From Phytoactinopolyspora alkaliphila (GTDB taxonomy: Bacteria; Actinomycetota; Actinomycetes; Jiangellales; Jiangellaceae): a stretch of 64,000 nucleotides of DNA. Below, in pieces: positions 24,632-45,352 of this stretch. Positions within the stretch are counted from its first letter, which is position 1. Each line of letters opens with the position of its first letter. The DNA is taken from the NCBI RefSeq assembly GCF_010550695.1, contig NZ_JAAGOB010000005.1, forward strand, positions 245,547 to 309,546, in the 5' to 3' direction. The translations under genes were made by a program, and so were the position numbers. The notes below the pieces were generated by a model. It was not told the origin of the DNA and made no database searches. It saw only the letters and a list, made by a program, of their open reading frames with translations.

Positions 24632-25501
24632 ATGGACGAGAGCGCGCAAGATCTGGTCACCACCGTCGTCATCTCTCACAACGGCGGCGAGAGCCTGATC
24701 GAGTCGATGGCCCGGCACCGCGGCGCGGTCATCCTGGTGGACAACGCCTCGACGGACGGGGCTCCGGACGCGGTCGCCGAACGGTACCCCGACGTGCGGA
24801 TCGTACGGCTGGGCTCCAATCTGGGCGCGCCCGCCCGCAACATCGGGGTATCGATGGCGGGCACGCCGTACGTCGCCTTCGCCGACGACGACTCGTGGTG
24901 GGCGCCGGGCGCGCTGGACCGAGCCTCCGAGGTCTTCCAGGCGTATCCAGACGTCGCCGCCGTAGCCGGCCGCGTGGTCATCGAGCCCGACGGCCGGCCC
25001 GATCCCATCTGCGCCCTGATGGCGGACTCGCCGCTGCCCGCCCGGCCAGACGTCGGTGGACGGGCCATCGCGGGCTTCCTGTGCTTCGCCACGGTGGTCC
25101 GCCGGGACGCGTTTCTCGGCGCCGGCGGCTTCGACGACGTGGTCTTCTTCGCGGGCGAGGAAGAGCGCCTCGCCATCGATCTGCTGAGTCAGGGCTGGGA
25201 GCTGCTGTACATTCCGGACGTCGTCGCTCACCACCAGCCGACGGCCGTCCGGGATCGCTCGCGGCGGCGACGGCTGGAGGAACGCAACCGGCTTCTCACC
25301 GCGGTGATGCGGCGCCCGTGGCCGGTGGTGATCCGGACCGTTGGGCAGGCCCTGCGGGAGGCAGAGGGACGGGGTGCCCTGGTAGACGCGCTACCTCGGC
25401 TCCCGCGTGCATGGAGATGCCGCCGGCCGTCATCGCCCCTGGTGGAACGACGACGCACCGAACTCGAGCGATCATCCGGCCAGAGCGCCGAAAGTCGATA
25501 G
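24632..25501 (+). CDS. Glycosyltransferase family 2
   Basis: 289 aa GT-A fold enzyme. Nucleotide-sugar binding strand TTVVISHNGGESLIES, then ILVDNASTDG, and the metal-binding DxD-like FADDDSWW around residue 87; the acceptor region is GFDDVVFFAGEEERLAIDLL. There is no signal peptide or membrane segment. It is the first plus-strand gene of the heptose cluster but ends about 60 bases before a separate promoter element, so it may be its own unit. Donor and acceptor are unknown. The C-terminal 30 residues are Arg-rich and probably unstructured. Confidence 0.88.
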   Translation: MDESAQDLVTTVVISHNGGESLIESMARHRGAVILVDNASTDGAPDAVAERYPDVRIVRLGSNLGAPARNIGVSMAGTPYVAFADDDSWWAPGALDRASEVFQAYPDVAAVAGRVVIEPDGRPDPICALMADSPLPARPDVGGRAIAGFLCFATVVRRDAFLGAGGFDDVVFFAGEEERLAIDLLSQGWELLYIPDVVAHHQPTAVRDRSRRRRLEERNRLLTAVMRRPWPVVIRTVGQALREAEGRGALVDALPRLPRAWRCRRPSSPLVERRRTELERSSGQSAESR

Positions 25502-25560
25502 CCCTCCCACAAGAACCATGAAAAGCAGCTTGCCGCAAGTAGCGGCTCCGGAAAAGAAGT

Positions 25561-25585
25561 GTTTCTCCTCCGGAGAAGTGGGCAC
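25561..25585 (+). promoter_or_regulatory. Sigma-B/sigma-F-like promoter, upstream of the heptosyltransferase operon
   Basis: GTTT (25561-25564), 15 bases, GGGCAC (25580-25585), close to the actinobacterial sigma-B/F consensus GTTT-N14-16-GGGTAY. It also contains TTCTCC/GGAGAA arms and two direct GAAGTG copies. A near-identical element lies at 33729-33753. It is 42 bases from the GTG of the operon. Confidence 0.6.
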
Positions 25586-25626
25586 ATGTGTGGCGCATGG
25601 CTTCTCGGGGAGGCGAGGTATAAAGC

Positions 25627-26655
25627 GTGAAACACCGCGTGCTCTGTGTCCGGCTCGACAATGCCGGCGACGTACTCCTGGCGGGGCCGGCGATCCGGGC
25701 GGTCGCCGCCTCCGGCGCGGCCGTCACGGTTCTGGCCGGTCCTTCTGGTGCGGAGGCCGCCCGGTTGCTGCCCGGTGTCGAGGACGTGATCGAGTGGCGA
25801 TGCCCGTGGGTCGACCTCGATCCACCAGCGGTCAACTCGGGTGACCTCGCGCTGCTGAAGATGCAGCTGCGCCTGCGCGAGTTCAGCTCTGCGCTGGTAT
25901 TCACCTCGTTCCACCAGTCTCCACTGCCTACGGCGCTCGTCCTCCGGCTTGCGGGAATCGACTGGATCGGCGCCCTCAGCGACGACTATCCGGGCTCCTT
26001 GCTGAACCTGCGGCATCGGCTGGAAGGAGACCACCCGGAGGCCGAGCGTGCCTTGTCCCTGGCGGAGGCTGCTGGATATCAGCTTCCTGCCGGCGACGAC
26101 GGGGCGTTGCGGGTACGTTCCGGGCTGCCGGACGTTCGGGCATTGACCGGAGACGGTCCCTACGTGGTGCTGCATCCCGGCACGTCGGCGCCGGCCCGCG
26201 CCTGGCCCGAAGACCGGTTCACCGAGCTGGCCCGGATGTTGCGTGCGGCGGGGCGGCGCGTCGTCGTGACGGGCGGGCCGGGTGAGGCGTCATTGACCCG
26301 GCGGGTGAGCGCGGCGGCCGCGGTGGATCTTGGCGGCAAGACCAGCATGACGGAGCTCGCGGCCGTTCTGGGAGGAGCCCTGGCCGTGGTGGTCGGCAAC
26401 ACCGGTCCCGCGCATCTGGCCGCCGCGGTGGGCACCCCGGTGGTCTCGTTGTTCGCGCCGACGGTGCCGGCCGCCCGCTGGGCACCGTACCGGGTCCCGT
26501 CGCTCATCCTCGGCGACCAGTTCGCGGCCTGCCGCGATACCCGGGCCGTCGCCTGCCCGGTACCGGGCCATCCGTGTCTGTCGTCCGTTCCCGCGGCGAG
26601 GGTGGCCGACGCCGTGTCCACCCTGATCCCGAGCGCAGAAAGGATCCCGGCATGA
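25627..26655 (+). CDS. GT9 heptosyltransferase-family glycosyltransferase
   Basis: 342 aa, GT-B fold of the ADP-heptose:LPS heptosyltransferase family. N-terminal VLCVRLDNAGDVLLAGPAIR carries the catalytic-loop Asp; the donor-binding half has VVLHPGTSAPARAWPEDRF and AVVVGNTGPAHLAAAVGTPV. Family members move L,D- or D,D-heptose from ADP. Enzymes for ADP-heptose are encoded directly downstream in the same operon, which supports heptose as donor. GTG start after GGGGAGGCGAGG. It is coupled to the next GT4 gene by ATGA. The acceptor cannot be LPS in this organism. Confidence 0.92.
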   Translation: MKHRVLCVRLDNAGDVLLAGPAIRAVAASGAAVTVLAGPSGAEAARLLPGVEDVIEWRCPWVDLDPPAVNSGDLALLKMQLRLREFSSALVFTSFHQSPLPTALVLRLAGIDWIGALSDDYPGSLLNLRHRLEGDHPEAERALSLAEAAGYQLPAGDDGALRVRSGLPDVRALTGDGPYVVLHPGTSAPARAWPEDRFTELARMLRAAGRRVVVTGGPGEASLTRRVSAAAAVDLGGKTSMTELAAVLGGALAVVVGNTGPAHLAAAVGTPVVSLFAPTVPAARWAPYRVPSLILGDQFAACRDTRAVACPVPGHPCLSSVPAARVADAVSTLIPSAERIPA

Positions 26656-27872
26656 AGATCGCGATGGTTTCCGAGCATGCCAGCCCGCTCGCCGTCATCG
26701 GGGGCGTGGACGCCGGAGGCCAGAACATCCATGTAGCGGCGCTTGCCAGCACGCTGGTCCGGCGAGGACACGATGTGACCGTGTTCACCCGGCGGGATGC
26801 TCTAGACCTCCCCGAGCGGGTCACGACGCTCGATGGGTACGTCGTCGAACACGTCCCGGCCGGTCCGCCGACGGAGGTTCCCAAGGACGAACTCCTCCCG
26901 CACATGAAGGAGTTCGCCGCGCACCTGAGCCGGAGGTGGAGCGCTGAGCCGTTCGACGTCGCCCACGCCCACTTCTGGATGAGCGGGCTGGCGGCCACCG
27001 AAGCGGCCGGGTTGGCGAAGGTGCCGGTGGTGCAGACCTTCCACGCGCTGGGCACCGTCAAGCGTCGTCATCAAGGCTCGAAGGACACCAGTCCGCCTGA
27101 CCGGATCGCCTGTGAGGAGCGTTTGTGCGCGGACGTCGACCATGTCATCGCCACCTGTAGCGACGAGGTGGAGGAACTGGCAGCGATGGGGCTGAGCCGG
27201 GAGAAGGTGTCCGTCGTCCCATGCGGAGTCGACCTCAGCCGGTTCCGGCCCAATCACACGTCGCCGGCGCTGTTCGCGCCGCCCAGACTTCTCGCGGTGG
27301 GCCGGCTCGTGGAACGCAAGGGGCTGTCCGACGTGGTCGAGGCGCTGGTCGATCTGCCAGGCGTCGAGCTGGTCGTCGCGGGCGGGCCACCAGCAGAGGC
27401 ACTCATGGCCGACCCGGAGGCCAACCGGGTGACGGATCAGGCCCGAGCCAACGGCACCGCGGACCGCGTGCGCTTCATCGGTTGCGTGGACCAGCAGCAT
27501 ATGCCAGACCTGTATGCCACCGCTGACCTCGTCGTTGCCGTGCCGTGGTACGAGCCCTTCGGCATCGTGCCGGTGGAGGCGATGGCATGCGCGCGCCCCG
27601 TCGTGGGATCTGCCGTGGGCGGCCTCCTGGACACCGTCGTTCCGGGTGAGACCGGCGAGCTGGTACCCCCGCGGGATCCGGCCCGGCTGGCCGCGGTCGT
27701 CCGCGACCTGCTGGGTGACCGCGCGCGCCGGGAAACGTACGGACGAGCGGGCGTCGAGCGGGTCCGAAGCCGGTACGGATGGGACACCGTGGCCGGGCAG
27801 ACCGAGGACGTCTACACGGCAGTAGCCCGCGCGGCGAGTGCACATCCCGCAGCAAGCCACCACGCGAGGTGA
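26652..27872 (+). CDS. Glycosyltransferase family 4
   Basis: 406 aa GT-B enzyme related to sucrose-phosphate-synthase/mannosyltransferase-type GT4 proteins. N-terminal IAMVSEHASPLAVIGGVDAG then GQNIHVAALA for acceptor and donor phosphate binding; VAHAHFWMSG; the E-x7-E donor motif is PWYEPFGIVPVEAMACARPV in the C-terminal domain. ATGA overlap with the upstream GT9 gene. It probably adds mannose, glucose or another hexose to the same glycan. No membrane segment, so it acts at the cytoplasmic face. Confidence 0.9.
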   Translation: MKIAMVSEHASPLAVIGGVDAGGQNIHVAALASTLVRRGHDVTVFTRRDALDLPERVTTLDGYVVEHVPAGPPTEVPKDELLPHMKEFAAHLSRRWSAEPFDVAHAHFWMSGLAATEAAGLAKVPVVQTFHALGTVKRRHQGSKDTSPPDRIACEERLCADVDHVIATCSDEVEELAAMGLSREKVSVVPCGVDLSRFRPNHTSPALFAPPRLLAVGRLVERKGLSDVVEALVDLPGVELVVAGGPPAEALMADPEANRVTDQARANGTADRVRFIGCVDQQHMPDLYATADLVVAVPWYEPFGIVPVEAMACARPVVGSAVGGLLDTVVPGETGELVPPRDPARLAAVVRDLLGDRARRETYGRAGVERVRSRYGWDTVAGQTEDVYTAVARAASAHPAASHHAR

Positions 27873-27877
27873 GAACA

Positions 27878-28504
27878 ATGACCTTGGCCACCCCCCATGG
27901 GCAGGAGCATCTGGATCTCCTGGCCGACACGCTTCCCCGCTTCCGGGACTGCGTCGATCTCGCCCACCGGTGGGGCACGGAACTCGCCGCGACTCTCTCC
28001 ACCGGCGGCCGGCTGCTCGCGGCCGGCAACGGTGGGAGCGCGGCCGAGGCGCAGCATCTGACCGCGGAGCTTGTGGGGCGCTACCACGAGGACCGTGAAC
28101 CCTACTCAGCGATCTGCCTGAGTGCGGAGACGTCGAGTCTTACCGCGATCGTCAACGACTATCCACCGGCGGAGCTGTTCGCCCGGCAGGTGGAGGCACA
28201 CGGCCGGGCCGGTGATGTTCTCGTGCTCATGTCGACCAGTGGCCGGAGCCCGAACATTCTGGCGGCGGCCCAGCGGGGGCGGAGCCGCGGGCTGCGGGTG
28301 TGGGCCTTCACCGGTGCTTGGCCGAACCCGCTGGCCGAGCTCGCGCATGAGGCTTTGTGTGTTCCGGCGCCGTCCACCGCCACGGTGCAGGAGCTTCACC
28401 TGGTGGCTCTGCACATCATGTGCGCCGGTTTCGACGCCGGCCTGGGCGTGGGCCTCGGTGACGGCCGAGACGCCGTGAGCGACGAGATCGGGGTGACTCC
28501 ATGA
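27878..28504 (+). CDS. gmhA: D-sedoheptulose-7-phosphate isomerase, GmhA type
   Basis: 208-aa SIS-domain enzyme. GmhA turns sedoheptulose 7-phosphate into D-glycero-D-manno-heptose 7-phosphate, the committed step to nucleotide-heptose. Diagnostic features: LLAAGNGGSAAEAQHLTAEL followed by VGRY, with the catalytic Glu; LMSTSGRSPNILAAA for phosphate binding; and the late VQELHLVALH with the catalytic His. It lies 5 bases after the GT4 gene, with GAGGTGAG as ribosome-binding site, and is ATGA-coupled to the HldE-like gene, so its product passes to the heptose kinase. A paralog is at 43771. Confidence 0.92.
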   Translation: MTLATPHGQEHLDLLADTLPRFRDCVDLAHRWGTELAATLSTGGRLLAAGNGGSAAEAQHLTAELVGRYHEDREPYSAICLSAETSSLTAIVNDYPPAELFARQVEAHGRAGDVLVLMSTSGRSPNILAAAQRGRSRGLRVWAFTGAWPNPLAELAHEALCVPAPSTATVQELHLVALHIMCAGFDAGLGVGLGDGRDAVSDEIGVTP

Positions 28505-29946
28505 GGCCGCGCGTCGTCGTCGCCGGCGACGCGCTGCTCGACGTGGACGTCGTCGGCGTGGCCAAGCGGCTGAGCCCGGACGCGCCGGTACCGGTGGTCG
28601 ACGACGTCGCCGAGCGTCTGCGACCTGGTGGCGCCGCGCTCGCGGCGTGCTTGCTGGCCGCGCGCGGCGCTGACGTCACGCTGATCGCGCCGTTGCCCGA
28701 CGACGACCCCGCCCGGCGGCTGCACGCGCTGCTGGAAGAGGTGGTGGCGGTGCGGGCGGTTCCGTGTGCGGGCAGCACGCCGGTGAAGAAACGGGTCCGG
28801 GCGGGCGATCAGTCCATCGTCCGCCTCGACAGTGGCGGCGAGCCCGGCGCCATAGCTGAGCTGCCGGAGGACGCCGCCCAAGCTCTGGCGTCGGCGGACG
28901 CGGTCCTGGTGTCCGATTACGGCCGGGGCATGGCCGCCGCTCCGGACTTCCGCGCGGTCCTGCAGGCGCTGCCGCACCGCCCGCCGATCGTCTGGGACCC
29001 ACACCCCCGGGGGGCGCACCCGGTGCCCGGCGTCACTCTGGCCACACCCAACGCGCAGGAGGCGACGGCGTGGATGGAGCGGTGCGGTCACTCGGTCAAC
29101 GGCTCCGGCGAGGGCTGGATGACGTCGCTGCGCCAGGCCGATGCGCTCCTGCACGCCTGGCGGGCCGGCGCTGTGGCGGTGACCCTGGGTAGCCAGGGTG
29201 CGCTGCTGTCACACGGGCACGGTGCTCCGCTGATGCTGCCGGCGCCGAGGACGAGCGGCGGTGACGCGTGTGGCGCCGGCGACGCGTTCGCGGCCACGGC
29301 CACCGCATTGCTCGGCAGAGGAGAGGTCAGTGAGGAGGCGGTGCGGCAGGCTGTCGTCGATGCGAGCCAGTTCGTCGCGGATGGCGGCGCCGCCGGCTTC
29401 ACCGCGCGGCTCGGCGCCCGAACCTCTCCGGACAGCGGCGAACGGCCGCAGCCGTGGCAGACCGACGCCGCCGAGGTGGCGCGCCGCGTGCACACCCGCG
29501 GCGGCGTGCTCGTAGCCACCGGGGGCTGTTTCGACCTCCTGCATACCGGCCACGTCGACTGCCTGCAAGCGGCCCGGAGGCTGGGCGACGCGCTGATCGT
29601 GTGCCTCAACTCCGATGAATCGGTGCGCCGGCTCAAGGGCTCGTCGCGGCCGATGGTCCCGGCACCGGACCGCGCCCGGATCCTGCAGGCCCTCGAATGT
29701 GTGGACGCGGTCCAGATCTTCGAGGAGGACACCCCCGCAGAGGTTCTCCGGCAGCTCCGCCCGCACGTGTGGGCCAAGGGCGGTGACTACGCCGGTGCGG
29801 AACTCCCGGAGCAGGCCGTCGTCGCCGAATGGGACGGACACGTCGTCACTCTTCCGTACATCGGCGGCTGGTCCACCAGTGCTCTCCTGGCCGCCGCCCA
29901 GTCCGCCGGCAACGACCGGTCACCGATCCAGAGGAGAAGCGCATGA
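28501..29946 (+). CDS. hldE: Bifunctional heptose 7-phosphate kinase / heptose 1-phosphate nucleotidyltransferase, HldE (RfaE) type
   Basis: 481 aa in two domains. Residues 1-310: PfkB-family kinase (VVVAGDALLDVDVVGVAKRL at the substrate site; TSGGDACGAGDAFAATAT with the catalytic Asp and anion hole). Residues about 340-470: nucleotidyltransferase with GGCFDLLHTGHVDCLQAARR (the H-x-G-H motif) and VCLNSDESVRRLKG. This order is that of HldE, which makes heptose 1,7-bisphosphate and then, after GmhB, ADP-heptose. The nucleotide (ADP or GDP) is not certain. Coupled on both sides by ATGA overlaps. Both active sites look complete. Confidence 0.92.
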   Translation: MRPRVVVAGDALLDVDVVGVAKRLSPDAPVPVVDDVAERLRPGGAALAACLLAARGADVTLIAPLPDDDPARRLHALLEEVVAVRAVPCAGSTPVKKRVRAGDQSIVRLDSGGEPGAIAELPEDAAQALASADAVLVSDYGRGMAAAPDFRAVLQALPHRPPIVWDPHPRGAHPVPGVTLATPNAQEATAWMERCGHSVNGSGEGWMTSLRQADALLHAWRAGAVAVTLGSQGALLSHGHGAPLMLPAPRTSGGDACGAGDAFAATATALLGRGEVSEEAVRQAVVDASQFVADGGAAGFTARLGARTSPDSGERPQPWQTDAAEVARRVHTRGGVLVATGGCFDLLHTGHVDCLQAARRLGDALIVCLNSDESVRRLKGSSRPMVPAPDRARILQALECVDAVQIFEEDTPAEVLRQLRPHVWAKGGDYAGAELPEQAVVAEWDGHVVTLPYIGGWSTSALLAAAQSAGNDRSPIQRRSA

Positions 29947-30626
29947 ATATCGGCACCGTCTTGGTCACTGGTGGCTCGTCCGGTCTCGGCGCGGCGGTCA
30001 CCCAGCTCTTGCAGAAGGAAGGCGCCCGCCCCGTGGTGCTCGACCGTAATCCGCCCGAAGCGGACGTCGATCACGAGATCGTCGATCTCGCGGTCCGTGG
30101 GGCCGCCGAGGACGCCGTCGAGCAGCTAGCGGCCCGCGCCGGCGGACTCGACGCCGTGGTGACATGTGCCGGGGTGGACTCGTGCGGGCCGCTGACGGGG
30201 GTCGCCGCGGACGAGTGGGAACGGGTCATCGAGGTCAACCTCTTCGGCACGGCCCGGGTGGTGCGCGCGGCTCTGCCACATCTGGAGCGGAGCAACGGCC
30301 GGCTGGTGACTGTAGCCTCCACCTTGGGTCTGCGCGCCGTCAGCGACGCGACGGCGTACTGCGCGTCGAAGTTCGGCGTTGTGGGGTTCACCCGGGCTCT
30401 CACCGCCGAGCTGGCCGGACGGGTGTGCGTCACTCTCCTGGTGCCGGGCGGCATGGAGACGCCGTTCTTCGACGGCCGCGACGAGCAGTACCGGCCGCCG
30501 GCGGACGCCAAGCTGAATCAGCCGTCCCATGTGGCCGGTTCGGTGCTCTTCGCCCTGCAGCAGCCCGCTGGATGTGAGGTGCGAGAGATCCTCGTGACAC
30601 CGTCCATGGAGAGCTCGTGGCCGTGA
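29943..30626 (+). CDS. Short-chain dehydrogenase/reductase (classical SDR)
   Basis: 227 aa. Cofactor motif VLVTGGSSGLGAAV, DLAVRG acidic patch, catalytic VASTLGL Ser region and Tyr-x-x-x-Lys as YCASKFG. ATGA-coupled to hldE, so it should act on a heptose derivative or other sugar nucleotide of the pathway. It is too short and of the wrong SDR class for the heptose 6-epimerase HldD, which is an extended SDR. A reductase or oxidase role is possible. Product not assignable. Confidence 0.87.
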   Translation: MNIGTVLVTGGSSGLGAAVTQLLQKEGARPVVLDRNPPEADVDHEIVDLAVRGAAEDAVEQLAARAGGLDAVVTCAGVDSCGPLTGVAADEWERVIEVNLFGTARVVRAALPHLERSNGRLVTVASTLGLRAVSDATAYCASKFGVVGFTRALTAELAGRVCVTLLVPGGMETPFFDGRDEQYRPPADAKLNQPSHVAGSVLFALQQPAGCEVREILVTPSMESSWP

Positions 30627-30630: not shown

Positions 30631-31647
30631 GTGCCATTGGTCATGGCCGAGAGTTCCCTGAACCAGTCCGCAGGGGCGCACGTGGCCATCCTCGACGAGG
30701 ACGAGCAAGGTGGACGGCCGGTGGCGCTGGCGTATCGTGCCCTCAACCTCGGAGACCTGCTGACGGCGGTGCCCGCGCTGCGGGGATTGCGCCGGGCGCT
30801 GCCGCGTCACCGGCTGGTGCTGGCCACGAAGCCCGGGCTGAGGCCGCTGATTCCCCTGATCGGCGCGGTGGACGAGCTGTTGCCGGCGGACGAGCTGTGC
30901 CCGCTGCGCTGGCCGTGGCCGGGCCCGGACGTGGCAGTGGACCTGCACGGCCGCGGCCCGGAGAGCCACCGTGTCCTGCTGGGCATAGAGCCGCGCCGAT
31001 TGGTGGCCTTCGCCGCGCCTGAGGTGGCCGTCGAAGGACCGCCATGGCGCCCGGGCGAGCACGAGGTACGGCGCTGGTGCCGGCTGGTCGAATGGGCCTG
31101 GCCGGGCTCCGCGTTCACCCATGACCTGGCGCTCCTCCGGCCGGCTACGCCTGCGGCCGTCCCTGGCGCCGTGATCGTGCATCCCGGGGCGGCTGCGCCC
31201 GCGCGGCGCTGGCCGGTCGAGCGGTTCGCCGAGGTAGCACGCTTTCTGGCACGTACCGGGCGGCCAGTACTCATCACCGGTTCCGCCGCCGAGGTGGAGC
31301 TCGCGGAGGCAGTGCGGGCGGCAGCGGATCTGCCACGCTCCGCCGTGCTCGCCGGCGCGACGTCTCTCGACGAGCTGGCAGCACTGGTCGCGGATGCCCG
31401 GCTGCTCGTCTCCAACGACACCGGCGTGGCACACGTCGCCACGGCGTTCAGGACGCCTTCAGTGGTGTTGTTCGGGCCGACATCCGCCGCCGAATGGGGG
31501 CCCCCGCCGTCGGACCGGCACATCGCCCTCGGCGACGGTGGCGGAGGAGACCCGCACGGAACCGTCCTGGACCCGGCATTGGCCAGGATTCAGGTTGACG
31601 ACGTGGTGGCGGCTGCCGAAGCCCTTCTGCGTTGCTCGGGCGGGTGA
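30631..31647 (+). CDS. GT9 heptosyltransferase-family glycosyltransferase
   Basis: 338 aa from a GTG at 30631; an ATG at 30643 is an alternative and the first 30 residues are variable. Heptosyltransferase motifs: YRALNLGDLLTAVPALRGLR, VIVHPGAAAPARRWPVERF, and LLVSNDTGVAHVATAFRTPS. It is the second GT9 enzyme of the cluster, so two heptoses or two different linkages may be built. It ends convergently with the epimerase gene and the two coding regions overlap by 58 bases. The GC-rich C-terminus encodes a glycine-rich stretch. Confidence 0.9.
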   Translation: MPLVMAESSLNQSAGAHVAILDEDEQGGRPVALAYRALNLGDLLTAVPALRGLRRALPRHRLVLATKPGLRPLIPLIGAVDELLPADELCPLRWPWPGPDVAVDLHGRGPESHRVLLGIEPRRLVAFAAPEVAVEGPPWRPGEHEVRRWCRLVEWAWPGSAFTHDLALLRPATPAAVPGAVIVHPGAAAPARRWPVERFAEVARFLARTGRPVLITGSAAEVELAEAVRAAADLPRSAVLAGATSLDELAALVADARLLVSNDTGVAHVATAFRTPSVVLFGPTSAAEWGPPPSDRHIALGDGGGGDPHGTVLDPALARIQVDDVVAAAEALLRCSGG

Positions 31648-32606
31648 GCCTTGCCGTTGCCCGTGGCATGCCGCCCGGCGAACCAGCGCACCGTCCGCGC
31701 CACGCCGTCGGCCAGGCTCACGCGTGGCTCCCAGCCCAACTGGCAGCGCGCGAGCGTGATGTCCGGCCGCCGCACTTTCGGGTCGTCCTGAGGAAGGTCG
31801 ATAAACACGATCTCGGAGCGGGAACCGGTGGCAGCCAGGACTCGCTTGGCCAGCTCCAGCATGGTGATCTCGTCGGCGCCGCCGATGTTGATGGGGCCGG
31901 CATGGGACGCGTCGGCCAGCGCCAGAATGCCGCGCACGGTGTCTTCCACGAAGCACAAGGACCGCGTCTGGCTGCCATCGCCCGCGACGGTGATCGGCTC
32001 CCCGGACAGCGCCTGATCTATGAACGTCGGGATCGCCCGCCCGTCGTTCGGACGCATCCGTGGCCCGTAGCTGTTGAAGAGCCGCACGATGCCGGTGTCG
32101 ACCCCGTAGCGGTTCCGGTAGGCGAAGGTGAGCGCTTCGGCGAACCTTTTCGACTCGTCGTAGACACCACGCGGCCCGATCGGGTTGACGTTGCCCCAGT
32201 AGTCCTCCCGCTGCGGATGTTCCAGGGGATCGCCGTACACCTCGGAGGTCGACGCCAGGACGAACCGGGCGCCATGCGCCCGGGCCAGTTCGAGGGCGTT
32301 GGCGGTGCCGGCCGAGCCCACGCGCATCGTCTCCACGGGATAGCGCAGATAATCCGCCGGCGAGGCGGGCGAGGCGAGATGGATGACCCGTTCTACCGGC
32401 TCGTCGACGGGCAGCGACACCGACACGTCGCATTCCGCCAGGGTGAATCGCGGATGGCCGCGCAACTCGACGAGGTTCTCCGGCCCCGAGGTGAGGAAAT
32501 TGTCCGCGCAGATCACCTGGTCACCGCGGTCCAGCAGGGCGGCGCACAGATGAGAACCGATGAAGCCGGCTCCTCCGGTCACGACGGTACGCGGTGTGGT
32601 GTGCAT
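31590..32606 (-). CDS. Extended SDR, UDP-glucuronate decarboxylase-like
   Basis: 338 aa. NAD-binding TVVTGGAGFIGSHLCAAL, then ASTSEVYGDPLEHPQREDYW, GNVNPIGPRGVYDESKRFAE with the catalytic Tyr and Lys, and RLFNSYGPRMRPNDGRAIP. These are close to UDP-glucuronic acid decarboxylase (UDP-xylose synthase) and dTDP-glucose 4,6-dehydratase relatives. It could provide UDP-xylose, or act on a nucleotide-heptose in this cluster; HldD proper is absent. The start at 32606 has GAGGAGGG upstream. The last 25 codons overlap the converging GT9 gene. A sigma-B-like promoter sits 29 bases before the start. Confidence 0.88.
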   Translation of the reverse strand: MHTTPRTVVTGGAGFIGSHLCAALLDRGDQVICADNFLTSGPENLVELRGHPRFTLAECDVSVSLPVDEPVERVIHLASPASPADYLRYPVETMRVGSAGTANALELARAHGARFVLASTSEVYGDPLEHPQREDYWGNVNPIGPRGVYDESKRFAEALTFAYRNRYGVDTGIVRLFNSYGPRMRPNDGRAIPTFIDQALSGEPITVAGDGSQTRSLCFVEDTVRGILALADASHAGPINIGGADEITMLELAKRVLAATGSRSEIVFIDLPQDDPKVRRPDITLARCQLGWEPRVSLADGVARTVRWFAGRHATGNGKAHPPEQRRRASAAATTSST

Positions 32607-32678: not shown

Positions 32679-33674
32679 TCAACCGTGCCCGGAACCGTGC
32701 CGGCCGGTATCGACGGCGTCGTGCAGCACACGGTCCCAGTCCTTGAGGAACCGGTCCAGGTTGTACCGGGCCCGGGCCACCTCGCGTGCGACCCGGCCGG
32801 CTGCGTGGGCGGCGTCCGGGTCATCGAGAAACCGGGCGGCGGCGGCATAGAGGCGGGCCGGATCGGTCGTGACACAACCAGCTTCGGGTGGGACCGCCAT
32901 CGGCGCCTCCGTGCAGCCCAGGACGACCACCGGCATGCCGAGATGCATCGCTTCGAGCAGTGAGAGCCCCAGGGACGTCCAGCGGTGGGTGTGTACGTAG
33001 ACCCGCCGCTGGGCCAGCTGAGCGTGCATCTCCTCCTGAGGGAGGTCGGGTATCGGCGTGCACTTGCCGGCCGGGAAGGACAACGCTTCGGGGAGCAGGT
33101 CGACGCCCATGCCGAACACGTCGATCGGGACAGCCTCGGCCAGCATGGGCAACAGATCCGTCCCCACGGCACGGCCGCGGCGGACCGGCTCGTTCACTAC
33201 CACTCCCGCAGCCGCTCGTTCACCGGTGTACTGGTGTCCCGGATCGATGATGCCGTGATCGATCACGATGGTCGGTGCGGCGCCGTTGTCCCAGATCAGC
33301 TCATTGAAGTGGGTGACGTGAACGATGGGCACGGCACGCTGGTCCGCCATCGGATGCACGGTGGTGAACCCACCCGGAGGGGTGTTGTGCTCCAGGTACA
33401 CCGCCGACACGTCACGACCTGGATCCCGGCGCAGCCACGTCCGGACGAGCTCGACCTCGTGGGGGCGCTGCAGCACCACCACGTCCACGTCCCGGTTGGA
33501 CAGTTCGCCGAGCGGCACTTCCGCCGCGCTCTCCGGCCACGCATAGGTGCGCGCCCGGCCGCGGCCGTCCGATCCCCGGTCCGGTGAGACTGGGATCAGG
33601 TATTCGTGCTGCCCCTGAATGAACGCGGTGGTCCAGGACCCATGCAGGTGCCAGAGAAAGATGCGCATCCGCAC
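32679..33674 (-). CDS. Glycosyltransferase (GT-B, GT4-like)
   Basis: 331 aa with two Rossmann-like halves. N-terminal MRMRIFLWHLHGSWTTAFIQ, HVTHFNELIWDNGAAPTIVI, and in the C-terminal half VYVHTHRWTSLGLSLLEAMH then LGMPVVVLGCTEAPMAVPPE, the E-rich donor site of GT4 proteins. It is upstream of the epimerase gene on the same strand, 72 bases apart, and divergent from the carbamoyltransferase gene. It belongs to the heptose glycan cluster by position. Donor unknown. Confidence 0.8.
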   Translation of the reverse strand: MRMRIFLWHLHGSWTTAFIQGQHEYLIPVSPDRGSDGRGRARTYAWPESAAEVPLGELSNRDVDVVVLQRPHEVELVRTWLRRDPGRDVSAVYLEHNTPPGGFTTVHPMADQRAVPIVHVTHFNELIWDNGAAPTIVIDHGIIDPGHQYTGERAAAGVVVNEPVRRGRAVGTDLLPMLAEAVPIDVFGMGVDLLPEALSFPAGKCTPIPDLPQEEMHAQLAQRRVYVHTHRWTSLGLSLLEAMHLGMPVVVLGCTEAPMAVPPEAGCVTTDPARLYAAAARFLDDPDAAHAAGRVAREVARARYNLDRFLKDWDRVLHDAVDTGRHGSGHG

Positions 33675-33728
33675 CTGCGTTCCCTATCGGCCCACTTGTA
33701 TGCGCCCGGGCCTGCGCGAAAGAGAAGT

Positions 33729-33753
33729 GTTTCTTCCCCGGAGAAGTGGGCAC
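33729..33753 (+). promoter_or_regulatory. Sigma-B/sigma-F-like promoter upstream of the carbamoyltransferase
   Basis: GTTT (33729-33732), 15 bases, GGGCAC (33748-33753). About 36 of 39 bases around it match the element at 25561, including GAAGTG direct copies and GGAGAAGTGGGCAC. It is 57 bases from the start codon, far enough for a short leader with GAGGAGG. Confidence 0.6.
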
Positions 33754-33810
33754 AGCAGTACCGACACCAACGAGCGCACGCCGTCGTGTAAGCAGTGCGA
33801 GGAGGCACAG

Positions 33811-35445
33811 ATGAAGGTGCTCGGCATCAACGCCATCTTCCACGACCCGGCGGCGGCGCTCGTCATCGACGGGGAGACGGTAGCGGCAGCCGAAGAAGAA
33901 CGCTTCAGCCGCCGCAAACACGGAAAGCGGCCGGTCCCGTTCTCGGCTTGGGAACTGCCGGAGCAAGCGGCTCGGTGGTGCCTCGGGGTCGCCGGGCTGG
34001 AGCCGTCGCAGCTCGACGCTGTCGGATACTCCTTCGACCCGGAACTGGCCAAACCGGCCGAAGAGATGGGGCTCGGCGACCCCTGGGACTACTTGCGGCG
34101 GATGTATGCCGAGGCTGCCCCCCGGTTCCTCGCCACCGCGCTGCCCGGCCTCGACCCCGCCGACGTCCACTACGTTCCTCACCACGTCGCGCACGCCGCA
34201 TCGGCGGGCCTAGCCACACCGCTCGGGAGCAACGACGTCCTCGTGCTGGACGGACGAGGGGAGAGCGCTAGTCATCTGGCCGGGCAATATGACGACTCGG
34301 GCGCGCTGAAGGTCCTGGCCGCACAGGAGCTTCCGCACTCGCTCGGGCTGATGTACGAGGACATGACTCAGCATCTGGGATTCCTGCGCAGCAGCGACGA
34401 GTACAAGGTGATGGCGATGGCGTCGTACGGCCGTCCCAGGTTCGTGGATGTGATCCGGTCCGCCGTCTACGCCACCGGCGATGGCGGCTTCCGCACCGAG
34501 CCGGTCGACTGGGCATCCTTGGCACCCGCCCGCCGGCCCGGGGAGGAATGGACGGGCGACCATGCGGATCTCGCCGCCAGCGTCCAGCAGCGGCTCGAGG
34601 AGGTCCTCGTCGAGCTGGCCGGCTGGCTGCGAGCGAACACCGGCGGCAGCACGCTCACCATGGCGGGCGGGGTCGCCCTCAACTGCGTCGCGAACACGGT
34701 CATCGCCCAGCACAGTGGATACGACCGGGTATGGATACAGCCGGCCGCAGGGGACGCCGGCACCGCGCTCGGTTCCGCCCTCCACCTGGCGCAGCGCAAC
34801 GGCGACGGCGTCCGGCCGATGCGCGGTGCGGACCTCGGCCGGTCATGGACCGACGCGGAGCTGGAGGAGCAGCTGACGACGGCGAAGCTGCCCTACGAAA
34901 GACCGGCGGACGTCGCCGAGACCGCGGCCGAGTGCCTGGCCGGCAACGGCCTGGTGGCCTGGTTCCACGGCCGCAGCGAATACGGCCCGCGTGCGCTCGG
35001 GTACCGGTCGCTGCTGGCCCACCCCGGCCATCTGGAGAACATCAGCCGGCTCAACGACGTCAAGGGCCGTGAGCAGTTCCGTCCGGTGGCACCCATGGTG
35101 CGAGCGGAGCGTGCCGCCGAGCTGTTTTCCCGCGGTCCGCTTCCCTCTCCGTACATGCTGTTCACCCATGACGTGTCCGCCGAGTGGCGGGACCGGGTCC
35201 CTGCCGCCGTCCACGTGGACGGCACCGCCCGGATCCAGACGGTCGACGAGTCCGACCACCCGCTGATGGCGCGCGTACTGAACAGCTTCGAGCTCCGCAC
35301 AGGTCTGCCGGTGCTGATCAACACCAGCTTGAACACCGCCGGGCGGCCCATGGTCGACTCTCCCCGGGACGCGCTGGAGTGCTTCGGCTCCACGCCGGTG
35401 GACATGCTGGTTCTCGGCCCGTTCGTTGTGCGCCGCCCGGTCTGA
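33811..35445 (+). CDS. NodU/CmcH-family O-carbamoyltransferase
   Basis: 544 aa, full length. It transfers a carbamoyl group from carbamoyl phosphate via carbamoyl-AMP to a sugar hydroxyl. The Kae1-like N-terminal domain has VLGINAIFHDPAAALVIDGE, EEERFSRRKH and the metal site VPHHVAHAASA, plus SDEYKVMAMASYG; the C-terminal domain has the FHGRSEYGPRALGYRS and VLINTSLNTAGRPMV signatures. In Pseudomonas the relative WapO carbamoylates core heptose; with GT9 and GmhA/HldE genes alongside, a carbamoylated heptose is the natural inference. GAGGAGG lies seven bases before the ATG. Confidence 0.93.
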   Translation: MKVLGINAIFHDPAAALVIDGETVAAAEEERFSRRKHGKRPVPFSAWELPEQAARWCLGVAGLEPSQLDAVGYSFDPELAKPAEEMGLGDPWDYLRRMYAEAAPRFLATALPGLDPADVHYVPHHVAHAASAGLATPLGSNDVLVLDGRGESASHLAGQYDDSGALKVLAAQELPHSLGLMYEDMTQHLGFLRSSDEYKVMAMASYGRPRFVDVIRSAVYATGDGGFRTEPVDWASLAPARRPGEEWTGDHADLAASVQQRLEEVLVELAGWLRANTGGSTLTMAGGVALNCVANTVIAQHSGYDRVWIQPAAGDAGTALGSALHLAQRNGDGVRPMRGADLGRSWTDAELEEQLTTAKLPYERPADVAETAAECLAGNGLVAWFHGRSEYGPRALGYRSLLAHPGHLENISRLNDVKGREQFRPVAPMVRAERAAELFSRGPLPSPYMLFTHDVSAEWRDRVPAAVHVDGTARIQTVDESDHPLMARVLNSFELRTGLPVLINTSLNTAGRPMVDSPRDALECFGSTPVDMLVLGPFVVRRPV

Positions 35446-35452: not shown

Positions 35453-36901
35453 ATGACCATCAGTCCCACCGACGTCTCCACCACCATCCCGACCACCGTG
35501 GTGGTGCCCACAGTCGGCCGGCCCAGCCTGCACGTGCTCCTGGAGCGGCTTCGCACGTGCCCCGGCCCCAGACCCGCCGGAATCCTCGTCCTTGAGGACA
35601 CGGAACGCGCCGGCCCGGCTGCTACGCGTAACCGAGGCTGGCGACTGGCGCGGACCCCGTGGGTGAGCTTCCTCGACGACGACGTGGTGCCGGATGCCGA
35701 CTGGCTCTACCGCCTTCAGCAGGACATCGACGCCGCGGAGGACGACGTCGTCGGTATCCAGGGACAGGTGACCGTGCCGCTGTCCCCGGACCGGCGGCCC
35801 ACAGACTGGGAGCGTGCCACCGCGGGCCTGCAGGACGCGGCCTGGATCACCGCCGACATGACCTATCGGCGCTCCGCACTGGCCGCTGTCGGAGGCTTCG
35901 ACGAGCGGTTCCGCCGGGCCTTCCGGGAGGATGCCGACCTCGCGTTGCGGCTCATGCAGCGTGGCCGGATGATCAGGGGCCGCCGGCAGGTCGCCCATCC
36001 CGTGCGGCCCGCGGGCTTCTGGGTCAGTGTCCGCACCCAGGCCGGCAACGCCGACGACGTCTTGATGCGCCGTCTGCACGGACCCGGTTGGCGAACCCGA
36101 GCCGCGGCCGGCCGCGGCCGTCGTCGTCGGCACCTGGCCGTTACGGCCTGCGGTGTGGCGGGCTTGGCTCTGGCCGTCCTGGGCCACCGGCGGGCTGCGG
36201 CGGCCGCGGCGACCGCCTGGCTGGCCGGCACGGCGGAGTTCGCGGCCGCCCGTATCGCGCCTGGTCCGCGGACCGCGGCGGAGATCACCCGGATGCTCGT
36301 CACCAGCGCGCTCATTCCCCCGGCGGCGACGGTGCATACCGTGCGGGGGCTCATTCGGCACCGGCAGGTGCCGGCCTGGGCGGGCGTGCCGGAGCTGGTG
36401 CTCTTCGACCGCGACGGCACCCTGGTGCGCAACGTGCCCTACAACGGTGACCCCCGGGTGGTGGAGCCTGTGCCCGGCGCGGCTGTCGCGCTGACCCGGC
36501 TGCGCTCGGCCGGAATCCGCGTGGGCGTCGTCACGAATCAGTCCGGCATCGCCTCTGGACGCCTCACACGGGACGAGGTGGAGCGGGTGAACGAACGTGT
36601 CGATCAGCTGCTCGGGCCGTTCGACGTCTGGCGGGTCTGCCCACACGGCCCGGACGAGGGATGCGGCTGCCGCAAACCCGCGCCCGGGATGGTGAGTTCA
36701 GCCTGTGCCGAGCTGGGCATCGACCCTTCGCGATGCGCGGTGATCGGCGACATCGGGTCCGACGTGGCGGCGGCGGAAGCCGCGGGTGCCTCTGGTGTCC
36801 TGGTCCCGACGGAGGAGACCCGCCCGGCCGAGATCGGCGCTGCCTCCCGGATCGCCACCGACGTGCCCGCAGCCGTGGATGCGCTAATGCGGGGCTACTG
36901 A
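35453..36901 (+). CDS. Fusion of GT2 glycosyltransferase and GmhB-type heptose-bisphosphate phosphatase
   Basis: 482 aa. Residues 8-225: GT2 domain (TVVVPTVGRPSLHVLLERL, DDD metal site FLDDDVVPDADW, FREDADLALRLMQRGR). Residues about 225-315: Arg-rich linker with hydrophobic helices. Residues about 318-480: HAD phosphatase of the HisB-N/GmhB class, with nucleophile motif FDRDGTLVRN, VVTNQSGIASG, the zinc loop CPHGPDEGCGCRKPAPGM and GDIGSDVAAAEAAGA. GmhB removes the 7-phosphate of heptose 1,7-bisphosphate, the step between the two HldE activities. The pathway in this cluster is thus complete. It lies 7 bases after the carbamoyltransferase. Confidence 0.9.
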   Translation: MTISPTDVSTTIPTTVVVPTVGRPSLHVLLERLRTCPGPRPAGILVLEDTERAGPAATRNRGWRLARTPWVSFLDDDVVPDADWLYRLQQDIDAAEDDVVGIQGQVTVPLSPDRRPTDWERATAGLQDAAWITADMTYRRSALAAVGGFDERFRRAFREDADLALRLMQRGRMIRGRRQVAHPVRPAGFWVSVRTQAGNADDVLMRRLHGPGWRTRAAAGRGRRRRHLAVTACGVAGLALAVLGHRRAAAAAATAWLAGTAEFAAARIAPGPRTAAEITRMLVTSALIPPAATVHTVRGLIRHRQVPAWAGVPELVLFDRDGTLVRNVPYNGDPRVVEPVPGAAVALTRLRSAGIRVGVVTNQSGIASGRLTRDEVERVNERVDQLLGPFDVWRVCPHGPDEGCGCRKPAPGMVSSACAELGIDPSRCAVIGDIGSDVAAAEAAGASGVLVPTEETRPAEIGAASRIATDVPAAVDALMRGY

Positions 36902-37384: not shown

Positions 37385-37409
37385 GTTTGGCTGCTCGTTC
37401 TCCGGGTAG
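37385..37409 (+). promoter_or_regulatory. Sigma-B/sigma-F-like promoter upstream of transketolase
   Basis: GTTT (37385-37388), 15 bases, GGGTAG (37404-37409), five of six matches to GGGTAY. It lies 41 bases from the ATG at 37451. The spacer carries GTTCTCC, also found in the other elements of the cluster. Confidence 0.55.
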
Positions 37410-37450
37410 TGGCAGCACGAACCACCGGACGTCGAGCAAGGGAATCCGCC

Positions 37451-39331
37451 ATGAACGACGACGGAGATCGTGCCATGACAGGACAGAACGTCAGCCAGGC
37501 CGTCCACATCGGTGAACTGGGCGACCAGCTGAGGGTCGATGCGATCCGCTGCTCCGCCGCGTCCGGCTCGGGGCACCCGACATCGTCGATGTCGGCCGCG
37601 GACCTGATGGCGACGCTCTTCACCCGCCATCTGCGCTACGACTTCGACGATCCGAGCAACCCGCACAATGATCATCTGATCTTCTCCAAGGGACACGCGT
37701 CGCCGCTTCTTTACGCGTTGTACAAGGCTGCCGGTGCGATCACCGACGAAGAACTGCTCTCCTTCCGCACCCTGGGGAGCCGGATGGAAGGGCATCCGAC
37801 ACCGCGCTTGCCATGGGTGGACGTCGCCACCGGCTCGCTGGGCCAGGGACTGCCGTTCGGCGTCGGTATCGCCCTGGCCGGAAAGCTCCTGGATCGCCTT
37901 CCCTATCGGGTGTGGGTCCTGTGCGGTGACAGCGAGCTGGCCGAGGGATCGATATGGGAGGCCTGCGAGCACGCCGGGTACGAGAAACTGGCCAACCTCG
38001 TCGCCATCGTCGACGTCAACCGGCTGGGCCAGCGTGGCCCGACCCGGCACGGGTGGGACACGGGCGCCTACGCGCGGCGGATGCAGGCGTTCGACTGGAA
38101 CACCATCGAGATCGACGGCCACGACATCGACCAGATCGACAGTGCCTACGCTGCCGCCGCAGCATCCGACCGGCCGACCGCCATCCTGGCGCGGACGACC
38201 AAAGGCGCGGGCGTCGAAGCCGTCGCGGATCGCGAAGAGCAGCACGGGAAGCCGCTGGCCGACGCCGACGACGCCATCGATGAACTCGGCGGCGTGCGCA
38301 ACGTGCGGATCGATGTGCGCCCGCCGGCGAACGAGACCGAGCCGTACCAGTTCGGCGAGCCGAGCCCTTTGCGGCTCTCCGAATACAAGGTCGGCGACAG
38401 CGTGGCCACCCGGAACGCCTTCGGCGAAGCCCTCGCCGCGCTCGGTGCGGCCCGGCCGGACGTCGTGGGGCTCGACGCCGAGGTGGGTGACTCGACCCGA
38501 ATGCAGAAGTTCGCCGATGCCCATCCGGAGCGCTTCTTCCAGTGCTACATCGCCGAGCAGCAGATGATCGCGGCGGCCGTCGGCATGGGCGTTCGCGGCT
38601 GGACTCCTTACGCCGCCACCTTCGCCGCGTTCCTGACCCGCGCTTATGACTTCGTCCGGATGGCCGCGGTGAGCGGTGCCGAGTTGCGGCTCGTGGGCTC
38701 GCACGCGGGTGTGGCGATCGGCCAGGACGGGCCCTCTCAGATGGGGCTGGAGGACCTTGCGGCGTTCCGGGCGGTACACCGCAGTGTGGTGCTCTATCCC
38801 TGCGACGCGAATCAGACCGCGGCTCTGGTGGCGGCGATGGCCGACTATCCCGGCATTGCGTACTTGCGGACCAGTCGCGGCGACACGCCCGTCATCTACG
38901 GCCCGGGGGAGGAGTTCTCGATCGCCGGCAGCCGTGTGCTGCGCTCATCGGCGCAGGACGACGTGACCATCATCGCCGCGGGCGTCACGGTGCACGAGGC
39001 GTTGACGGCGGCCGACCAGCTCGGTCAGGACGGCATCAGCGCGAGGGTGATCGATCTCTACTCCGTCAAACCCGTGGACGCTCAGACGGTACGCGACGCG
39101 GCGCGCGACACCGGGCGGATCGTGACGGTGGAGGACCACTGGCCTCAGGGCGGGGTTGGCGACGCCGTGCTGGACGTCTTCGCCCAGGGAGCCGAGGGAC
39201 CCATGCCCCAGGTGCTCAAACTGGCCGTGCACGGCATGCCGGCCTCGGCTACACCCGAGGAACAGTTGCGCACGGCCGGCATCGACCATCAGGCCGTCAC
39301 CGAGGCTGTCCGCTCCCTTCTGCGGAGGTAG
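37451..39331 (+). CDS. Transketolase
   Basis: 626 aa, slightly shorter than housekeeping transketolases. Thiamine-diphosphate enzyme moving two-carbon ketol units; one product is sedoheptulose 7-phosphate, the GmhA substrate. Seen: GSGHPTSSMSAADLMATLF, FSKGHASPLLYALY, the TPP/Mg2+ motif as GDSELAEGSIWEACEHAGYE rather than the usual GDG, VDVNRLGQ, and IAEQQM with the cofactor-activating Glu. The ATG at 37451 has AAGGGA nine bases upstream. Its own sigma-B-like promoter and its place beside the heptose genes suggest it feeds them. The 3' end overlaps the convergent gene by 35 bases. A close paralog starts at 63416. Confidence 0.93.
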   Translation: MNDDGDRAMTGQNVSQAVHIGELGDQLRVDAIRCSAASGSGHPTSSMSAADLMATLFTRHLRYDFDDPSNPHNDHLIFSKGHASPLLYALYKAAGAITDEELLSFRTLGSRMEGHPTPRLPWVDVATGSLGQGLPFGVGIALAGKLLDRLPYRVWVLCGDSELAEGSIWEACEHAGYEKLANLVAIVDVNRLGQRGPTRHGWDTGAYARRMQAFDWNTIEIDGHDIDQIDSAYAAAAASDRPTAILARTTKGAGVEAVADREEQHGKPLADADDAIDELGGVRNVRIDVRPPANETEPYQFGEPSPLRLSEYKVGDSVATRNAFGEALAALGAARPDVVGLDAEVGDSTRMQKFADAHPERFFQCYIAEQQMIAAAVGMGVRGWTPYAATFAAFLTRAYDFVRMAAVSGAELRLVGSHAGVAIGQDGPSQMGLEDLAAFRAVHRSVVLYPCDANQTAALVAAMADYPGIAYLRTSRGDTPVIYGPGEEFSIAGSRVLRSSAQDDVTIIAAGVTVHEALTAADQLGQDGISARVIDLYSVKPVDAQTVRDAARDTGRIVTVEDHWPQGGVGDAVLDVFAQGAEGPMPQVLKLAVHGMPASATPEEQLRTAGIDHQAVTEAVRSLLRR

Positions 39332-43774: not shown

Positions 43775-44394
43775 GGTGCGGGGTCCTCCTCGGCGGCCCA
43801 GACGTCGGCGATCTCGCTGATCAGATGCAGCATGAGGGTGTGCATTTCCTGTATGCGCGCGGTTGTCGTCGACGGAGCCAGCAGCACGTGGTCGGCATGC
43901 TCCCGTGCCGGTCCTCCGTCGCCGCCGCCGAAGAGCACCGTGGTGGCGCCTCGTTTCCGGGCGGCGGCAAGGCCGGCGACGATATTAGCCGACCGTCCGC
44001 TTGTGGTGAAAGCGCTGACGACGTCACCAGGCCGGACGAGGGCGTCCACCTGGCGGGCGAACACGTCGTCGAACGAGTAGTCATTGGCGATGCACGTCGA
44101 CACGGTCGGGTCGGTGGTGAGCGTCACAGCGGGGAGTGGCCGGCGGTCTCGCTTGTAGTGGCCGATGAGCTCACCGGTGAAGTGTTGCGCGTCCGCGGCG
44201 CTGCCGCCGTTGCCGAAGGTGTAGAGCGTGCCGCCGGCGGCGAACCGGTCACACAGGAGCTCCCCGACCGCTCGCACGGCGGGCAGCAGCGCGGGGATCG
44301 CCTGAGCTGTGCGAACGTGCTCGTCGACCTGCTGTTCGATACCGGCCTCGCGCACGGCCGATGCCAAGCGGTGGTCCGGAATGTTCTCAGCCAT
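43771..44394 (-). CDS. SIS-domain phosphoheptose isomerase-like protein (GmhA paralog)
   Basis: 207 aa. GmhA-type features are all present: LYTFGNGGSAADAQHFTGEL followed by IGHY, ANDYSFDDVFARQVDAL, AFTTSGRSANIVAGL and IQEMHTLMLHLI, i.e. the catalytic Glu and His positions. It therefore should interconvert an aldose and ketose phosphate, most simply manno-heptose 7-phosphate and sedoheptulose 7-phosphate. It is unexpected in a glycan-degradation operon. It overlaps the ROK kinase by 8 bases and the GH38 gene by 4, placing kinase, isomerase and mannosidase in one translation-coupled set. Confidence 0.88.
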   Translation of the reverse strand: MAENIPDHRLASAVREAGIEQQVDEHVRTAQAIPALLPAVRAVGELLCDRFAAGGTLYTFGNGGSAADAQHFTGELIGHYKRDRRPLPAVTLTTDPTVSTCIANDYSFDDVFARQVDALVRPGDVVSAFTTSGRSANIVAGLAAARKRGATTVLFGGGDGGPAREHADHVLLAPSTTTARIQEMHTLMLHLISEIADVWAAEEDPAP

Positions 44395-45352
44395 GGTCCA
44401 CTCCAGCCAGCGCGTCGAGCGCGACGACGCCCGCTCCGGCGACGCACACAACGTCACCGAGCCCGGCCAGCACGACGTGCGCGGACTTGGCCGCCGGTGG
44501 CATCGCGTCGCGAGCGACGACCTCGGCGACCGGCTCGAGCAGCATCGCGCCGGACCGGGTGACGCCGCCGCCGAGGATGACCAGCTCGGGCTCGAAGATG
44601 TTCACCAGATCCGTCACGGCCTGTCCGAGGACTTCGGTGGTCTCGTCCCAGATCCGGCGCGCCAGCTGATCGTTGCCCCGCGCCGCTTCGGCGACCTCCG
44701 CCGACGTCAGTGGGCTGACACCCGCGAGCGCCGACGCAGGCTCGGTCGCCAGGGCTTCCGCCGCACGCTCGGCGATGGAACTGCCGGACACGTAGGCCTC
44801 GAGACAGCCTTTCCGGCCGCACGTGCAGATCCGCCCACCGGGCCGGACGACGACGTGGCCGAGTTCACCGCCATTGCCGGCCGCTCCGCGGTGCAGCTTG
44901 CCATGGACCACCGAGCCGCCTCCGACCCCCGTGGAGATGGTCAGATACAGCATGGTGGAGGCGCCTCTGCCGGCGCCGAAGCGGTGTTCGCCCAGGGCCG
45001 CGGCTGTGGCGTCGTTCTCCAGGAAGGCCGGGACACCGAACTCAATCCGTGCCATCTCGCCCAGGGGAATGTCGATCCATCCCGGCAGATGGGGCGGACA
45101 CAGGAGAATGCCCCGGGGGCCGTCGAGGGGGCCTCCGCAGGAGATCCCCACCGCCGCCACGTCGAGGCCGGCCCGCGCGACGGAGCGGCGACCCATGTCG
45201 AACAGCCGGGCGATGACCGATTGTGGCCCCTCTTCCCGGCGGGTCGGCTCCACGAGCAGGCCGTGGACCGTGCCGTCGGACGTCACCACTCCCACAGCGA
45301 GTTTGGTGCCGCCGATGTCGAGGGACAACACGGCGGGCTGTGGTGCGCTCAT
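44387..45352 (-). CDS. ROK-family sugar kinase
   Basis: 321 aa. ATP-binding LSLDIGGTKLAVGVV, catalytic region FLENDATAAALGEHRFGAGR, TISTGVGGG, and the zinc-type motif GGELGHVVV followed by CTCGRKGCLEAYVSG. There is no N-terminal helix-turn-helix, so it is a kinase not a repressor. ROK kinases phosphorylate glucose, mannose or N-acetylmannosamine/glucosamine; here it would act on monosaccharide released by GH38/GH84. Two LacI-type operators lie in the 188-base gap upstream. It heads the ROK-SIS-GH38-hydrolase block. Confidence 0.92.
   Translation of the reverse strand: MSAPQPAVLSLDIGGTKLAVGVVTSDGTVHGLLVEPTRREEGPQSVIARLFDMGRRSVARAGLDVAAVGISCGGPLDGPRGILLCPPHLPGWIDIPLGEMARIEFGVPAFLENDATAAALGEHRFGAGRGASTMLYLTISTGVGGGSVVHGKLHRGAAGNGGELGHVVVRPGGRICTCGRKGCLEAYVSGSSIAERAAEALATEPASALAGVSPLTSAEVAEAARGNDQLARRIWDETTEVLGQAVTDLVNIFEPELVILGGGVTRSGAMLLEPVAEVVARDAMPPAAKSAHVVLAGLGDVVCVAGAGVVALDALAGVDHG

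Follow-up and report, generated by a model that had tools for sequence, protein, structure and literature searches.

A predicted O-carbamoyltransferase of a cwg-type oligosaccharide gene cluster in Phytoactinopolyspora alkaliphila

A gene of Phytoactinopolyspora alkaliphila, found in a 64,000-nucleotide stretch of contig NZ_JAAGOB010000005.1 (the window), encodes a putative carbamoyltransferase and lies among genes for the synthesis and transfer of heptose. Which molecule would such an enzyme carbamoylate? The answer most likely is a heptose/pentose oligosaccharide. We read the protein as the carbamoylating enzyme of an operon of the cwg type for an oligosaccharide; its acceptor would be a residue of the heptose/pentose oligosaccharide. 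We give this reading a probability of about 0.68. The surface sugar made by the gene set would contain heptose and probably xylose.

The carbamoyltransferase and its neighbours

The carbamoyltransferase reading frame is intact, with 544 open codons, an ATG start and a GAGGAGG ribosome site ahead of it. Both Pfam domains of the family are matched over the full length of their profiles, the Kae1-like Carbam_trans_N (2.3e-47, positions 1-346 of 346) and the YrdC-like Carbam_trans_C (4.8e-62, positions 1-170 of 170). In residue alignments to solved structures H124, H128, D147 and D315 align with the iron ligands H133, H137, D156 and D333 of GdmN, and H11 aligns with the GdmN base H27. The iron ligands are invariant in all 57 orthologues and the base histidine is kept in 56 of them. 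The preliminary description of the protein as a NodU-family enzyme is supported. Members of the family form carbamoyl-AMP from carbamoyl phosphate and ATP and then pass the carbamoyl group to a hydroxyl (PMC9633730). The window enzyme would likewise carry out an ATP- and carbamoyl phosphate-dependent transfer to a hydroxyl. It is the sole member of its family in the 5.5-Mb genome, and its best match is a protein of a genus-mate (G018, 81% identity).

The closest solved relatives of the protein are NovN (6.8e-90), 7xb6, GdmN and TobZ, which would fit a tailoring enzyme of the antibiotic type whose position near heptose genes is accidental. The window enzyme has the Kae1-like and YrdC-like domains, the iron ligands and the base histidine in common with TobZ, NovN, GdmN and NodU, but differs from them in clade and in gene context. 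It ends at residue 544 and lacks the C-terminal dimerisation domain of the GdmN type, and the position of the GdmN pocket residue Tyr82 is a serine in 57 of 57 orthologues. In the phylogenetic tree the actinobacterial proteins and their Burkholderiaceae sister clade (100/99) stand apart from NovN, GdmN, 7xb6 and an alphaproteobacterial NolO-like protein, and the separation from NovN, GdmN and 7xb6 has full support (100). The cluster is moreover syntenic across Actinomycetia, and the scanned neighbours in the window include no biosynthetic core genes. A chance neighbour of the antibiotic type is thus very improbable, and an ansamycin- or novobiocin-type carbamoyltransferase is rejected on the tree, the synteny and the missing dimerisation domain. 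The earlier view that the enzyme is not of the antibiotic type and has no other antibiotic genes nearby therefore holds. On these sequence grounds the enzyme is assigned to the envelope-glycan machinery and not to that of antibiotics.

The neighbouring genes are listed in Table 1. Together they are predicted to supply every enzyme type needed to make ADP-heptose from sedoheptulose-7-phosphate, plus a source of pentose. The GmhA-like protein matches phosphoheptose isomerases of the PDB (4.5e-37). GmhA, HldE and the short-chain dehydrogenase (SDR) all score under the curated NCBIfam cut-offs; for GmhA and HldE these equivalog cut-offs were presumably set on Gram-negative members. A search of the window HldE protein with regular expressions for catalytic motifs, which were guesses, gave no matches. 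The GT2 and HAD domains that are fused in the window are encoded by two separate genes in Streptomyces (L129) and Burkholderiaceae (L152). The transketolase downstream of the cluster is a possible local source of sedoheptulose-7-phosphate; no match to it was found beside the cluster in the other loci read, so that among these loci it is a neighbour in the window genome only. Farther downstream, the minus strand at 39297-46593 carries GH127-like, GH38 alpha-mannosidase, SIS, ROK and LacI regulator genes, which look like a set for glycan catabolism.

Table 1. Predicted genes and regulatory elements of the cluster, in window coordinates
Feature	Position	Strand	Basis
GT2 glycosyltransferase	24632..25501	+	PF00535 3e-17; homologues are terminal genes of the Streptomyces operon and of Burkholderiaceae loci
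Regulatory element, copy 2	25549..25586	+	40 bp ahead of the GT9 heptosyltransferase operon
GT9 heptosyltransferase a (cwgE position)	25627..26655	+	PF01075 3.1e-29; synteny
GT4 glycosyltransferase, MshA-like	26652..27872	+	PF13439/PF00534; start codon by inspection
GmhA-like sedoheptulose-7-phosphate isomerase	27878..28504	+	SIS_2 3.2e-20; TIGR00441 5.9e-45, under the curated cut-off; start by inspection
HldE-like bifunctional heptose-7-P kinase / heptose-1-P adenylyltransferase	28501..29946	+	PfkB and CTP_transf_like; NF008454 1.8e-78, under the cut-off
Short-chain dehydrogenase (SDR), cluster-conserved	29943..30626	+	adh_short 3.3e-40; synteny; start by inspection
GT9 heptosyltransferase b	30631..31647	+	PF01075 1.3e-28
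UDP-glucuronate decarboxylase (UDP-xylose synthase, UXS)	31590..32606	-	UXS1 structures 5.8e-96; 63% to L129 gene 1
GT-B glycosyltransferase, Glyco_trans_1_4 type, cluster-conserved	32679..33674	-	Pfam; synteny
Regulatory element, copy 1	33717..33754	+	degenerate GAGAAGCGCTTCTC palindrome and GAGAAGTG half-site; 57 bp ahead of the carbamoyltransferase start
Class III O-carbamoyltransferase (NodU/TobZ type)	33811..35445	+	Pfam N and C domains; active-site residues; 71% identity to cwg locus L129 gene 2
GT2 and GmhB-like HAD phosphatase fusion	35453..36901	+	heptose-1,7-bisphosphate phosphatase structures 4.2e-18; DRDGT and CPHGPDEGCGC motifs
Transketolase	37409..39331	+	domain match; downstream of the cluster

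The cwg operon and its relatives

The cwg operon of Streptomyces coelicolor has reportedly been known since 2002. It spans SCO6179-SCO6190 and is described as a predicted or 'putative' cell wall glycan operon that is partly sigma-E dependent and induced by vancomycin. The published products include a 'transferase' (cwgB), a 'dehydratase' (cwgD), a heptosyltransferase (cwgE), a phosphoheptose isomerase (cwgH) and a bifunctional enzyme (cwgI), and SCO6178 is a deacetylase. The operon belongs to the cell-envelope stress regulon of S. coelicolor, and its promoter has been published (PMC6767563). Used as a DNA probe, this promoter is found unchanged in one of 393 Streptomyces genomes. Directly behind it (locus L129) UXS, carbamoyltransferase, GT2, HAD, GT9, GT, GT4, GmhA, HldE, GT9, GT2 and GT2 genes succeed one another, with a polysaccharide deacetylase gene divergent to the operon. 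Because the promoter is exact, the genes number twelve as published, their order fits the listed cwg products and the divergent deacetylase fits SCO6178, L129 is taken to be the cwg locus. By position its second gene would be cwgB (SCO6180). The product of this gene is 71% identical to the window protein, which can be assigned as its orthologue.

The window holds homologues of the complete cwg gene set (UXS, carbamoyltransferase, GT2, HAD, two GT9, GT, GT4, GmhA, HldE and the terminal GT2) between 24632 and 36901, and its system can be classified as a member of the known, chemically uncharacterised cwg type. The enzyme set is that of S. coelicolor, with the same order in the Streptomyces loci, but the arrangement in the window differs. 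The cluster consists of two units on the plus strand, with UXS and one glycosyltransferase on the other strand, and GT2 and HAD are fused. There is one GT2a-type gene instead of two, as well as an SDR that was undetected in the Streptomyces loci, and two predicted palindromic operator copies take the place of an upstream promoter of the sigma-E type. In the literature searched there is no mention of carbamoylation of the cwg product. The same literature yielded no chemistry of the cwg glycan and no direct data on heptose or carbamoyl groups in actinobacterial walls.

With at least 61% identity as the criterion, which sets them clearly apart from relatives (at most 46%), orthologues of the carbamoyltransferase are present in 67 of 346 Actinomycetia genomes. 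In Jiangellaceae, the family of the window genome, they are present in 8 of 22 genomes (at least 68% identity); HldE accompanies seven of these eight, and the eighth is cut by a contig edge. Across Actinomycetia an HldE gene lies within 15 kb of 59 of the 67 orthologues. The presence of the two genes is associated over the 346 genomes (63 with both, 4 with the carbamoyltransferase only, 17 with HldE only and 262 with neither; p = 5e-48, relatedness uncorrected). The functional tie to heptose genes proposed in the preliminary description is thereby strengthened. The genes for carbamoyltransferase, GT2(-HAD), GT9, GT, GT4, GmhA, HldE, sometimes SDR, and GT9 recur in this order as a single operon in Promicromonosporaceae and Streptomyces, among other groups, and their content and order are kept in these, in Jiangellaceae and in further families. 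In most relatives the carbamoyltransferase gene is the first of, or inside, a single operon with the heptose genes, and the split layout of the window is a local rearrangement. The gene is part of an old, conserved surface-sugar gene set of many actinobacteria and some relatives of Burkholderia. In one locus of the genus-mate (L041, G018:C6:63972-65369) the HldE match is broken by one in-frame TGA, either a sequencing error or a real break. The cwg-type genes on Streptomyces plasmids (L154, L157) lie near BON-domain, PRC-barrel and catalase genes, and their location on large plasmids suggests that the set may be mobile.

The next-best matches in the plasmid collection are on megaplasmids of Burkholderiaceae (45-47% identity), carried by Paraburkholderia sp. 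D15, P. sprentiae, B. multivorans, Caballeronia zhejiangensis and Cupriavidus sp. EM10. The order there is HAD-GT9-carbamoyltransferase-GT2-GT9-GT, with homologues of UXS, GT4, GT2 and sometimes SDR nearby. GmhA and HldE are absent from the Burkholderiaceae stretches read, and the LPS pathway presumably takes over their function. That the carbamoyltransferase independently recurs beside heptosyltransferases in Burkholderiaceae is the strongest evidence for a heptose-containing glycan as the target. The occurrence of the cluster in monoderms and diderms argues against an anchor specific to peptidoglycan and weakens the idea of a glycan specific to the Gram-positive wall. The Burkholderiaceae loci (L152, L153, L155, L156, L159) also contain PIG-L deacetylase and ABC transporter genes, and some have genes for catalase, ferritin-like or BON-domain proteins in their vicinity.

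The shared upstream element

The two copies of the upstream element lie 8.2 kb apart and are the same at 34 of 38 bases (89%, E = 2.6e-7 within the window). At up to three mismatches they are the only copies in the 5.5-Mb genome, and a reversed control pattern gave none. They read AGAAGTGTTTCT, followed by the GAGAAGTG half-site, and are degenerate versions of a palindrome, GAGAAGCGCTTCTC. Within three mismatches this palindrome is found in 33 of 55 non-identical orthologue upstream regions against 0.78 expected from shuffles, a count that is inflated by related sequences and concerns a palindrome picked after the same sequences had been viewed. All eight exact occurrences in 20 genomes, chosen as carriers of the cluster, are at the carbamoyltransferase promoter. 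Nearly unique in each genome, the palindrome lies upstream of orthologues in several actinobacterial families (for example L104:6144 and L025:9874). The exact double half-site GAAGTG-N11-15-GAAGTG is absent from relatives outside the genome of the window, and the conserved form of the element is the palindrome and not the double half-site.

The element is better read as a predicted degenerate palindromic operator with a half-site than as a sigma-factor promoter. A sigma-E promoter in the window is rejected, as no AAC-N16-CGTC site was found within 400 bp upstream of six window genes. The central AGCGCT might, at a guess, resemble operators of the LacI family. No constant candidate for a regulator gene beside the operator emerged from the flanks of the few loci scanned.

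The preliminary description had proposed that the carbamoyltransferase gene has a promoter element nearly copied from that of the heptosyltransferase operon, and that the two are co-expressed. The near-copy and the co-regulation stand, with two copies only in the genome, but the element itself reads as an operator. The heptose genes do adjoin; the operon, however, starts at 25627, and the gene upstream of the element is a separate GT2 gene. Since the same predicted operator precedes each unit, both halves of the cluster would be switched on together, and co-expression of the two transcription units is well supported as an inference.

The acceptor and the nature of the product

In the proposed mechanism, the C-terminal YrdC-like domain would form carbamoyl-AMP from carbamoyl phosphate and ATP, as is established for the family. 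The operon would act as two transcription units in this genome, both on together through the operator ahead of each. The acceptor would be a residue of an oligosaccharide built from ADP-heptose (GmhA, HldE, the GmhB-like HAD and two GT9 proteins) and from a pentose derived from UDP-glucuronate (UXS). Four to five further glycosyltransferases would assemble the oligosaccharide, and the product would be exposed on the envelope or secreted.

Which residue is carbamoylated cannot be read from co-occurrence alone, because every member of the operon co-occurs. Heptose genes are near-constant beside the carbamoyltransferase, and carbamoylated heptose has a precedent in the LPS core of Pseudomonas (PMC8005017). 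There WapO (PA5005) is the reported L-glycero-D-manno-heptose carbamoyltransferase, encoded in a heptose-glycan gene cluster (PMC8005017). WapO acts on the LPS core of a diderm, and its likeness to the window enzyme is one of literature description rather than of compared sequences. A heptose acceptor, which the preliminary description proposed by analogy with WapO and which would give carbamoyl-heptose, is in our judgement plausible at somewhat under even odds. The description as a whole is thus supported in part.

Alternatively, the enzyme could carbamoylate the UXS-derived pentose or the residue that the neighbouring GT2 attaches, with heptose as just another building block of the same glycan. 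UXS is encoded beside or near the carbamoyltransferase. In nearly all loci, including those of Burkholderiaceae and of a genome that lacks heptose genes (G127), the next gene after the carbamoyltransferase encodes a GT2, which makes the sugar of this GT2 an equally close candidate, if not a closer one. In G127, a complete genome of the Streptomyces type (L103 4679-9375), UXS, carbamoyltransferase and GT2 are kept with the active site intact, and no GT9 or HldE is found anywhere, which points to another acceptor there. The Streptomyces plasmid L154, with UXS-carbamoyltransferase-GT2-GT4-GmhA-HldE and no GT9, is an intermediate state. G127 is however a single clear case and may be a remnant, and the sole other case that lacks heptose genes (G283) has lost catalytic residues. 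Carbamoyl-heptose also has its precedent in Pseudomonas, whereas none for carbamoyl-xylose was found in the literature searched. We consider a pentose or a GT2-linked sugar possible, though less likely than heptose, and leave the remainder to another residue. As a counter-example free of heptose genes G283 is discounted, since H11, K418 and R424 are changed. Its gene (L112, 10010-11659) lies beside a sigma factor gene and is a lone divergent orthologue with H11Q, K418G and R424C that may be decaying or have taken on another role.

Wherever the carbamoyl group is attached, the product need not be a wall polymer. It could be a small glycolipid or glycoside that is secreted as a stress-related metabolite and decorated by the carbamoyl group. 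The enzyme set is also present in a diderm family, where ABC transporter and PIG-L deacetylase genes adjoin it and genes for catalase, ferritin-like or BON-domain proteins are close by; the GT4 of the window is MshA-like, and the cluster genes identified include none recognised as a polymerase, flippase or ligase. Yet export genes may lie elsewhere, as the flanks are annotated in part only, and the S. coelicolor operon belongs to the cell-envelope stress regulon (PMC6767563). A secreted metabolite seems on balance unlikely, and the carbamoylated oligosaccharide of a cwg-type operon remains our preferred reading.

The cwg operon is one of only two sigma-E envelope-stress targets known in Streptomyces before the regulon was mapped, and in the literature searched its product is a prediction. 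The operon is widespread among Actinomycetia, with a counterpart in Burkholderiaceae, a wider distribution than that literature describes. Tentatively, and against the odds as we judge them, the genes may form a trans-phylum cassette of Actinomycetota and Burkholderiaceae, often near stress-tolerance genes, that makes an undescribed carbamoylated heptose/pentose glycoconjugate tied to neither LPS nor peptidoglycan; in actinobacteria a dedicated regulator would bind GAGAAGCGCTTCTC at the carbamoyltransferase promoter. The short predicted operator sequence would be a handle for catching this regulator. For the glycan itself the analysis offers a chemical prediction, a carbamoyl group of +43 Da on a heptose/pentose glycan.
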